The notes beneath the pieces were generated by a model, which worked only from the letters and a program-made list of their open reading frames with translations, was not told the origin of the DNA and made no database searches. From the NCBI RefSeq assembly GCF_015223195.1, contig NZ_JADFUA010000005.1, forward strand, positions 1 through 64,000: DNA of 64,000 bases, given 5' to 3'. The position numbers and the translations under genes are program-made. Shown in pieces: positions 42,299 through 43,553 of the stretch; the stretch's first letter is position 1; the number at the start of each line of letters is the position of its first letter. The stretch is from Chitinilyticum piscinae. Lineage in GTDB: Bacteria; Pseudomonadota; Gammaproteobacteria; Burkholderiales; Chitinibacteraceae.

Positions 42299-42371
42299 GC
42301 GACATAACTAGGGAAAGCCCCAATCTTTTCAGTCTTGACGGCTGTTATTTGCAGGGAGCATCATCAATTCC

Positions 42372-42425
42372 ATGACTACGTTCAACGCCGTTTCCTTCGC
42401 ATATTATTACTGGTGGCGCCATTAG
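42372..42425 (+). CDS. trpS leader peptide (17 residues, Tyr3-Trp2)
   Basis: The frame encodes MTTFNAVSFAYYYWWRH. AGGGAG lies 13 bases upstream, a little far but usable. Three Tyr codons (42402-42410) and two Trp codons (42411-42416) stand four codons or fewer before the stop, exactly over the first strand of the attenuator hairpin. Peptides of this design let the ribosome report the level of charged tRNA. It lies 120 bp before trpS. Confidence rests on the combined peptide and hairpin arrangement. Confidence 0.8.
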   Translation: MTTFNAVSFAYYYWWRH

Positions 42426-42497
42426 GCGGCACCGGGACGCGTTGCGCATCAACCGCATACACGAACCTGCCGCCGGATCTGGCGGCAGGTTTTTTTA
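42412..42497 (+). promoter_or_regulatory. Transcription attenuator controlling trpS
   Basis: Four segments can pair in alternatives. Segment 1 GGTGGCGCC (42412-42420, covering the Trp codons) pairs with segment 2 GGCGGCACC (42425-42433), eight of nine bases. Segment 2 GGCGGCA (42425-42431) pairs perfectly with segment 3 TGCCGCC (42468-42474), the antiterminator. Segment 3 pairs perfectly with segment 4 GGCGGCA (42481-42487), the terminator, extended to 11 bp and followed by seven T. A ribosome stalled at the Trp codons would mask segment 1, free segment 2 and allow read-through to trpS. A ribosome reaching the stop would cover segment 2 and let the terminator form. Confidence 0.8.
42464..42497 (+). 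terminator. Attenuator terminator before trpS
   Basis: AACCTGCCGCC (42464-42474) and GGCGGCAGGTT (42481-42491) pair over 11 bp around GGATCT, followed by a T run. It stands 49 bp before the trpS start, so it must be regulated or leaky for trpS expression. Confidence 0.9.
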
Positions 42498-42545
42498 TAT
42501 CCACACCCTCCCCCAGCATCCGGCAGCATAGACCAGGAGAAGTCC

Positions 42546-43553
42546 ATGTCTGACCAGGAAATCATCGTCGTCACAGGCGACCGTACCACCGGCCCGCTGC
42601 ACCTGGGCCACCTTGCCGGCTCACTCCAGAACCGCCTGCGTCTGCAGGGGCAGTACCGCCAGTTCCTGCTGCTGGCCGATACCCAGGCGCTGTCCGACCA
42701 TCAGGGCGATTACAGCCGCGTGCGCCAGAGCGTGATCGACGTGGCACTGGATTATCTCGCCGTCGGCCTGGATCCCAAGCAATCGACTTTTCTGATCCAG
42801 TCCATGGTGCCCGAGCTGGCAGAATTGTCGTTCTACTTCATGAATCTGGTCTCGGTGGCCCGGCTTGAGCGCAACCCGACGGTGAAAAACGAGATCCGCC
42901 AGAAAGGCATGGAGCGCGATATTGCGGCCGGTTTTCTCAGCTATCCCGTCAGCCAGGCCGCCGACATCTGCGCCTTGAAAGGCACCCTCGTCCCGGTGGG
43001 AGAGGATCAGCTGCCCATGATCGAGCAGACCAATGAAATCGTGCGCCGTTTCAACCGCATGGTCGGCAGTGACATTCTGCGCGAGTGCAAGGCAGAAGTC
43101 GGCAAGGTGGCCAGACTGCCGGGCATCGACGGCGCCAGCAAGATGAGCCGCGCACTGGGCAATCACCTGCCCCTGTCTGCCTCGCCCGATGAAATTCGCC
43201 ACGCGGTCCAGCGCATGTTCACCGACCCGCAGCACTTGCGAGTCAGTGATCCCGGCCGCATCGAGGGCAATGTGGTGTTCACCTTCCTCGATGCCTTTGC
43301 CAGCGATAGCGAGCAGGTAGCCGAATTCAAGGAGCACTACCAGCGTGGCGGGCTGGCTGATTCAGCCGTCAAGACCTACCTTGAACAGGTACTGCTGGAA
43401 CTGCTGGAGCCGATCCGACTGCGGCGCGCCGAGCTGGCCAAAGATCCGGACCAGATCCTGTCACTGCTGATGGCCGGCTCCAGCCGGGCCCGCGAAGTGG
43501 CTGTACTGACGCTGTATCAGGTCAAAAAGGCCATGGGTATGTTCTACTTCTAG
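42546..43553 (+). CDS. trpS: Tryptophanyl-tRNA synthetase
   Basis: The protein has 335 residues and an AGGAG site upstream. The class I HIGH motif is PLHLGHLAG (17-25) and the KMSKS loop is KMSRA (199-203). Sequence patterns (VTGDRTTGPLHLGH, FYFMNLVSVARLERNPTVKNEI, YPVSQAADICALK) match the clade typified by streptococcal TrpRS rather than the short E. coli type. Gln47 in ADTQALSDH stands where housekeeping enzymes commonly have His (DxHA), a position linked to indolmycin sensitivity. It is controlled by the leader at 42372-42497. Confidence 0.95.
   Translation: MSDQEIIVVTGDRTTGPLHLGHLAGSLQNRLRLQGQYRQFLLLADTQALSDHQGDYSRVRQSVIDVALDYLAVGLDPKQSTFLIQSMVPELAELSFYFMNLVSVARLERNPTVKNEIRQKGMERDIAAGFLSYPVSQAADICALKGTLVPVGEDQLPMIEQTNEIVRRFNRMVGSDILRECKAEVGKVARLPGIDGASKMSRALGNHLPLSASPDEIRHAVQRMFTDPQHLRVSDPGRIEGNVVFTFLDAFASDSEQVAEFKEHYQRGGLADSAVKTYLEQVLLELLEPIRLRRAELAKDPDQILSLLMAGSSRAREVAVLTLYQVKKAMGMFYF

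Follow-up and report, generated by a model that had tools for sequence, protein, structure and literature searches.

Attenuators of the E. coli type, as in the trp operon, combine a leader peptide with tandem Trp codons, the exclusive pairings 1:2, 2:3, and 3:4 among four RNA segments, and an intrinsic terminator. A survey of proteobacterial attenuators by Vitreschak (2004) is cited in PMC1262725. In Streptomyces coelicolor, the tryptophanyl-tRNA synthetase (TrpRS) gene with a Trp leader is the auxiliary one, and Vecchione and Sello reportedly did experimental work on the S. coelicolor trpRS1 attenuator. Other Streptomyces attenuators before trpS are in print, namely a prediction for S. avermitilis trpS2 (PMC1262725) and S. 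lividans trpL2 (PMC8079986). Leaderless Trp leaders, in which the transcript begins with the leader ATG, are in print for Sinorhizobium meliloti trpL (PMC7298713) and S. lividans trpL1 (PMC8079986). Ribosome stalling with transcription and translation attenuation in one leader is described for Bacillus subtilis vmlR (PMC9226507), and a translated small ORF lies upstream of trpS in the proteobacterium Caulobacter crescentus (PMC4117421). Deinococcus radiodurans has a second TrpRS, TrpRS II, that partners nitric-oxide synthase (review, PMC9437257). Statements on these PMC sources, here and below, refer to excerpts of them. Open-access PMC yielded nothing on a Chromobacterium TrpRS leader, which is not a claim of absence from print.

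The switch described here precedes a trpS gene of Chitinilyticum, within the 64,000-nucleotide stretch of DNA that was analyzed as a whole (the window). It has the parts of an E. coli-type trp attenuator, from which it differs in that the gene controlled encodes a TrpRS, a leaderless start is predicted for the leader ORF, and a conserved fifth segment is tied to segment 3, the terminator loop, and the ribosome binding site (RBS). As in Streptomyces, the Trp leader stands 5' of a TrpRS gene, although in another phylum and with other leader sequences, and the excerpts of the Streptomyces papers describe no segment 5. The initial annotation was aware of no described trpS attenuator in this clade; the kind itself is known from the Streptomyces examples in print (PMC1262725, PMC8079986), so the Burkholderiales switch is a variant and not a new kind. 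A transcript beginning with the leader ATG would be shared with S. meliloti trpL and S. lividans trpL1, but those stand before trpE(G) or trpE and not trpS. Stalling that acts on both transcription and translation would be shared with the vmlR leader, which is an antibiotic sensor with other sequences and another gene.

The Trp leader and its conservation

The features of the locus are as follows, with the basis for each in parentheses.

42335-42364, forward strand: predicted promoter, TTGACG (42335-42340), an 18-base spacer, and CATCAT (42359-42364) (two-box scan)
42372-42425, forward strand: leader ORF encoding MTTFNAVSFAYYYWWRH and a stop; Trp codons 42411-42416 conserved, Tyr run only in the nearest genera
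42410-42420, forward strand: segment 1, which spans the Trp codons (fold; 1:2 coevolution)
42425-42435, forward strand: segment 2, of which 42425-42431 pairs with segment 3 in the antiterminator (fold; 2:3 swap test, p=0.00035)
42463-42479, forward strand: segment 3 and terminator loop (fold)
42480-42496, forward strand: segment 4 and T run, an intrinsic terminator with segment 3 (fold)
42518-42528, forward strand: segment 5, ATCCGGCAGCA, complementary to TGCCGCCGGAT at 42468-42478 with one A-C mismatch (group tests)
42535-42548, forward strand: Shine-Dalgarno AGGAG (42535-42539) and trpS start codon (42546-42548) (sequence)
42546-43553, forward strand: trpS, a second, TrpRS II-type tryptophanyl-tRNA synthetase of 335 aa with zero Trp residues (profile and PDB match)

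The leader parts lie where the initial annotation had placed them: a 17-codon ORF 5' of trpS, a hairpin over the Trp codons, a 7-bp antiterminator 2:3 (GGCGGCA at 42425-42431 with TGCCGCC at 42468-42474; sequence and fold), a 3:4 terminator with T run, and the trpS ATG at 42546, 49 bases 3' of the terminator. The 1:2 hairpin, which had been given as 8 of 9 pairs, is slightly better than that: 42410-42420 folds with 42425-42435 in 10 pairs and one G-G mismatch. The terminator (42463-42492) folds to a 13-bp hairpin whose last T's are paired with A's, and the T's continue to 42496. No Rfam family (T-box and known leaders included) reached the gathering score in the leader, weak matches all staying below it, and the sole match in the window was a tRNA away from the leader; a known Rfam RNA was thus ruled out as the identity of the leader. 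Just 3' of the T run, at 42500-42516, there is a C-rich, G-poor tract (CACACCCTCCCCC), also present in many Neisseriales leaders and reminiscent of Rho loading sites.

The promoter ends 7 bases 5' of the leader ATG, so that the transcript is expected to start at or next to the ATG, and we predict that the leader ORF is leaderless. A sigma-70-like two-box site ends 5, 6, or 7 bases 5' of the leader ATG in 86 of the 102 leaders described below, and a Shine-Dalgarno-like motif precedes the leader ORF in one of them. This spacing with a score of at least 8 occurs in 36 of 41 representative leaders versus 0.29% of shuffled upstream regions and none of the 41 trpS starts.

Conservation was evaluated by reading upstream regions at 80 named loci, 28 further loci of the family, and 43 loci of the order (one of these not placed). 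One script retained a Trp-codon leader plus terminator for 102 of 152 trpS orthologue loci (some species are present twice, and L010 stands in for L007, the same C. aquatile gene). Not kept were 23 loci without leader Trp by the script's distance rule, 16 without a terminator by its strict T-run rule, two without a start found, and nine dropped as false leaders or wrongly called hairpins; it should be noted that L151 and L152, among the 23, do have a WW leader on direct reading. WW or WWW leaders, mostly with Arg as the next residue, occur in Chitinibacteraceae, Chromobacteriaceae, Oxalobacteraceae, and further families. The Trp run has length 1 in 17 of the kept leaders (mostly Duganella-like, plus one genus of the window's family), 2 in 65, and 3 in 20. 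At Methylophilaceae loci, and in Collimonas, Noviherbaspirillum, and Undibacterium, no Trp-codon leader was found upstream of trpS.

In Undibacterium curvum (L084), which has one TrpRS and no Trp leader that we could find, a terminator-like hairpin with a T run stays 5' of trpS. Collimonas-type loci (L047, L054, L062, L063, L070, L170) have a strong GCCGCCGGC hairpin and T run in this place without a WW leader; the upstream gene may end in this hairpin. Duganella-like leaders (L046, L059, L071, and others) have a common AGTGATGTGATATTTTTATCA between segments 2 and 3, conserved far above its surroundings.

Coevolution was assessed by a swap test, in which the pairing strength of a segment with its own partner is compared with that of partners from other leaders (p=0.00005 is the smallest possible value). 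For the 41 representatives (leaders below 78% identity), p was 0.00005 for 1:2, 0.00035 for 2:3, and 0.00005 for 3:4. The 2:3 test was null when short segments were used, and longer ones brought p to 0.0002 in Neisseriales; in the Oxalobacteraceae-type set alone, no coevolution of 1:2, 2:3, or 3:4 was seen. Across 50 aligned Neisseriales leaders, 1:2, 3:4, and 5:RBS are jointly 70.2% paired, versus 35 to 41% after sliding. Trp-codon leaders with a terminator recur upstream of orthologous trpS genes in several Burkholderiales families, and this wide conservation, with the coevolving helices, supports the Trp attenuator that the initial annotation had proposed for trpS. That the attenuator is real is, in our judgment, near certain.

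Predicted pairing of a fifth segment

Segment 5 lies between the terminator and the RBS. It is complementary to segment 3 and the terminator loop, and overlapping bases of it are complementary to the trpS RBS. Compared with shuffled sequences, the 3:5 complementarity has p=0.023 in the window and 0.003 in C. aquatile (L010), where it consists of 12 perfect pairs. The RBS helix with segment 5 is weak in the window's species, at about -3.6 kcal/mol. For 50 distinct Neisseriales leaders, the median for the 3:5 duplex is -22.2 kcal/mol versus -12.4 shuffled (p<0.05 in 46/50); for 32 Oxalobacteraceae-type leaders, a set that takes in one leader of the alphaproteobacterium Nisaea, it is -17.8 versus -13.3, with p<0.05 in only 9/32.

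In the swap tests on the 41 representatives, own partners pair more strongly than swapped ones both for 3:5 (-18.2 vs. -14.3) and for 5:RBS (-10.8 vs. -8.4), each with p=0.00005, and the control swaps 1:5, 2:5, 4:5, 3:RBS, and 4:RBS, for which ancestry and composition are the same, gave p=0.56 to 0.99 in the same set. Segment 3 also coevolves with the RBS-pairing strand of segment 5 (-10.5 vs. -8.2, p=0.00005; 36 representatives), as does the terminator loop with segment 5 (-11.7 vs. -8.0, p=0.00005), with null controls in both cases. When 30 Oxalobacteraceae-type leaders were aligned blind to pairing, 87.8% of 3:5 cells were paired with covariation 0.370; sliding left 34 to 51% paired (50.7% at the highest) and a covariation no greater than 0.142. 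The 3:5 register had been selected on this very alignment out of 30 candidates, with a one-column bulge in addition. Between Neisseriales clades, the 3:5 register is shifted by indels. The RBS helix has at least 4 bp in 36 of the 41 representatives, and the RBS-pairing and segment-3-pairing parts of segment 5 overlap by at least 2 bases in 31. Leaders of the Aquitalea, Deefgea, and Chitinibacter types are among those whose RBS hairpin is strong.

Across the group, these results show two exclusive pairings, 3:5 and 5:RBS, to be under selection, whatever their order in time. We consider it likely that both pairings are functional in the wider group, and the combination of a Trp attenuator of trpS with a functional fifth segment there, the direction of any gate aside, is still probable. 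The competing possibility is that the switch is a plain four-segment Trp attenuator and that the complementarity of segment 5 is a by-product of GGCGGC/GCCGCC repeats and common descent. GC-rich motifs are indeed repeated in segments 2, 4, and 5, the window has a weak RBS helix and a mismatch in 3:5, and computed energies do not favor 3:5 (see below). However, ancestry and composition are preserved in the swap tests, and yet 3:5 and 5:RBS are significant in them and the five controls are not. Furthermore, the bases of the terminator loop, which in an attenuator are free of any need to pair, coevolve with segment 5. We regard the four-segment explanation as unlikely.

A possible translational gate

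The ORF, the helices, and the promoter spacing are seen in the sequences, together with their conservation and coevolution. We infer a transcription start, ribosome stalling, and read-through that would combine as follows. When charged tRNA-Trp is sufficient, 1:2 and the 3:4 terminator would form. When it is scarce, the ribosome would stall at the Trp codons, 2:3 would form, and RNA polymerase would enter trpS. Segment 5, transcribed only past the terminator, could pair either with segment 3 and the loop or with the trpS RBS. In RNAs that leak past a formed terminator, 5:RBS would hold the RBS closed; in RNAs with segment 3 outside the terminator, 3:5 could form and the RBS would be exposed. 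Tentatively, then, the likeliest role of segment 5 would be that of a second, translational gate that opens on starvation.

Relatives of the module were found away from trpS. A covariance model built from Neisseriales leaders matched 22 of 250 genomes of the order at E<=0.001 (the score of the window itself, E=5.2e-18, is not independent because the training set includes the window). Six regions away from trpS were viewed, five from the 250-genome scan and one from the scan that scored the window; weak matches (G130, G157, G236, G307) were left out. Full five-segment modules are present in three of the six, from G274 and G303 (one family) and G202 (another family), with leaders MTSTVTTQAVKWWRFR, MIRTVSILAAQWWRFR, and MNGTPVSIIVAQWWRFQ. 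The modules (G274:C13, G303:C6, and G202:C50; loci L197, L198, and L201) are followed by trpG and trpD, which score above the TIGR00566 and TIGR01245 cut-offs. Module and trpG are separated by a short ORF (31 to 73 codons), and it is to this ORF that the RBS of the module belongs. Only 1 or 2 T's occur in the 8 bases after the 3:4 hairpin, hence there is no T run, and the RBS hairpin and 3:5 are retained (3:5 at -17.4 to -20.9 vs. 2:3 at -11.8 to -13.8). Such a version would act by translation alone. Matches in G186 and in C4 of the window's own genome look like coding sequence by eye, and the G272 match looks like an unrelated terminator by eye. Separately, a candidate Trp leader (MAFVTSQRLDWRWRRS and a stop; L148) lies 5' of trpE (68906-70267, minus strand) elsewhere in the same genome (G000:C3). 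It stops 131 bases short of the start of the match, and by eye there is a hairpin 3' of it along with a T-rich stretch.

Three observations favor an opening role. Taken alone, 3:5 equals or exceeds 2:3 in strength in 29 of 41 representatives and in all three trpG-trpD modules. Formation of the terminator leaves the Shine-Dalgarno sequence less free than occupation of segment 5 does in 17/25 Neisseriales, but in only 4/15 others. Finally, both 3:5 and 5:RBS are retained in the modules without a T run. In the window, the Shine-Dalgarno sequence is 0.97 free with the terminator formed and the RBS helix is weak, and from the weak helix it follows that the RBS gate may be reduced in Chitinilyticum.

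A thermodynamic proof of the gate failed, as static energies came out against the simple model. In the energy comparison (26 Neisseriales and 15 other representatives), 3:4 with a closed RBS is lowest, and so below 3:5, in 26/26 and 15/15, and 2:3 with a closed RBS lies below 3:5 in 24/26 and 14/15. A pseudoknot that combined the outer stem of the terminator with 3:5, at a fixed penalty, was favored in 0/26 and 0/15. A toehold argument failed as well: the part of segment 3 left free in the 2:3 state is longer in 10, equal in 12, and shorter in 19 of the 41.

The gate could also work in reverse, with starvation leading to 2:3, segment 5 closing the RBS so that translation of read-through RNA is held back or delayed, and free segment 3 opening it through 3:5. 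Such an arrangement follows from the exclusive chain 1:2, 2:3, 3:5, 5:RBS, and it fits the energies just given, which rank 2:3 with a closed RBS as more stable than 3:5 in 24/26 and 14/15. It would, however, lower expression just when trpS or trpGD is needed, and the strength of 3:5 relative to 2:3 (at least equal in 29/41 representatives and the three trpG-trpD modules) speaks against it. We think a reverse gate improbable.

Sensing of Tyr is a separate matter, raised in the initial annotation by the Tyr triplet before the Trp pair. Two or three Tyr codons lie immediately 5' of the Trp codons in 17 of the 102 kept leaders, which belong to Chitinilyticum, Chitinibacter, Deefgea, and family mates. 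In the remaining leaders, Trp is preceded by F, S, N, G, H, a single Y, or another residue, or there is a third W. Tyr sensing was therefore rejected as a general function of the switch, as the Tyr run is not conserved beyond the nearest genera. For Chitinilyticum and its nearest relatives, a response to Tyr as well as Trp is conceivable, in that the Tyr codons are a feature of precisely these genera and a ribosome stalled at Tyr12 or Tyr13 would cover segment 1 and free segment 2 (by arithmetic with an assumed footprint). Against this, the run is lacking in other leaders, and even a Deefgea-like leader (L100) has YF and a Chitinibacter-like one (L095) YYKW in its place. We doubt that the switch responds to Tyr even there.

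E. coli ThrRS represses its own synthesis by binding its RBS region, and TrpRS II could similarly bind the RBS hairpin, which would suit the RBS helix of at least 4 bp in 36/41 representatives; this is very improbable, given that a tRNA-like loop was not seen by eye and that the module stands before trpG-trpD too.

Returning to the gate that opens on starvation, it is a real possibility that Burkholderiales have a five-segment class of leaderless Trp leaders, in which segment 3 would set both termination and RBS opening by swapping to segment 5, and which would be used before TrpRS II-type trpS and, in a T-run-less, translation-only form, before trpG-trpD. If so, the textbook four-segment attenuator would be extended to five segments, with the terminator strand linked to the RBS, and natural versions would exist both with a terminator and lacking one. 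A spare TrpRS that itself has almost no Trp would be equipped with a sensor fit for rescue once charged tRNA-Trp is exhausted, as in Streptomyces.

The second tryptophanyl-tRNA synthetase

The window trpS encodes a second TrpRS of the cell, a feature that the initial annotation missed, along with segment 5 and the leaderless start. Its product scores above the TIGR00233 cut-off, and its closest solved relative, the best of 59 PDB matches, is D. radiodurans TrpRS II (2a4m, 1yi8; E about 2e-117), likewise a second TrpRS in its cell. The C. aquatile TrpRS is 93% identical to the window enzyme. Another TrpRS of the window's genome (G000:C18) is 33% identical to it, and no WW leader was found in the 450 bases 5' of that gene.

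The window-type TrpRS is present in 32 of the 43 genomes of the GTDB family, and each of the 32 has at least one further match; in the order, the window-type TrpRS was found at E<=1e-75 in 57 of 399 genomes (28 of 158 genera). Of 30 named relatives chosen from the 80 named loci, 22 carry two or more TrpRS genes; in the other eight, the TrpRS II type is the sole TrpRS found. The leader is present in 20 of the 22 genomes with two TrpRS versus four of the eight with one (present in Massilia aquatica, Paludibacterium purpuratum, P. yongneupense, and Janthinobacterium K2E3; absent from three Methylophilaceae and Undibacterium curvum). Zero Trp residues were counted from the match start in 75 of the 80 named-locus enzymes, and the translated paralogues L009 and L008 have four each. 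An enzyme whose synthesis takes no Trp would fit a rescue role, and absence of the leader from four of the eight genomes in which the TrpRS II type is the sole TrpRS found fits a housekeeping role. One genus of the family has its TrpRS II-type gene adjoining another TrpRS-like gene on the opposite strand (G036:C17:69592-71316, G037:C1:1659384-1660910, and G038:C1:2094747-2096466), with a TGA inside the match to the latter in two of the three genomes.
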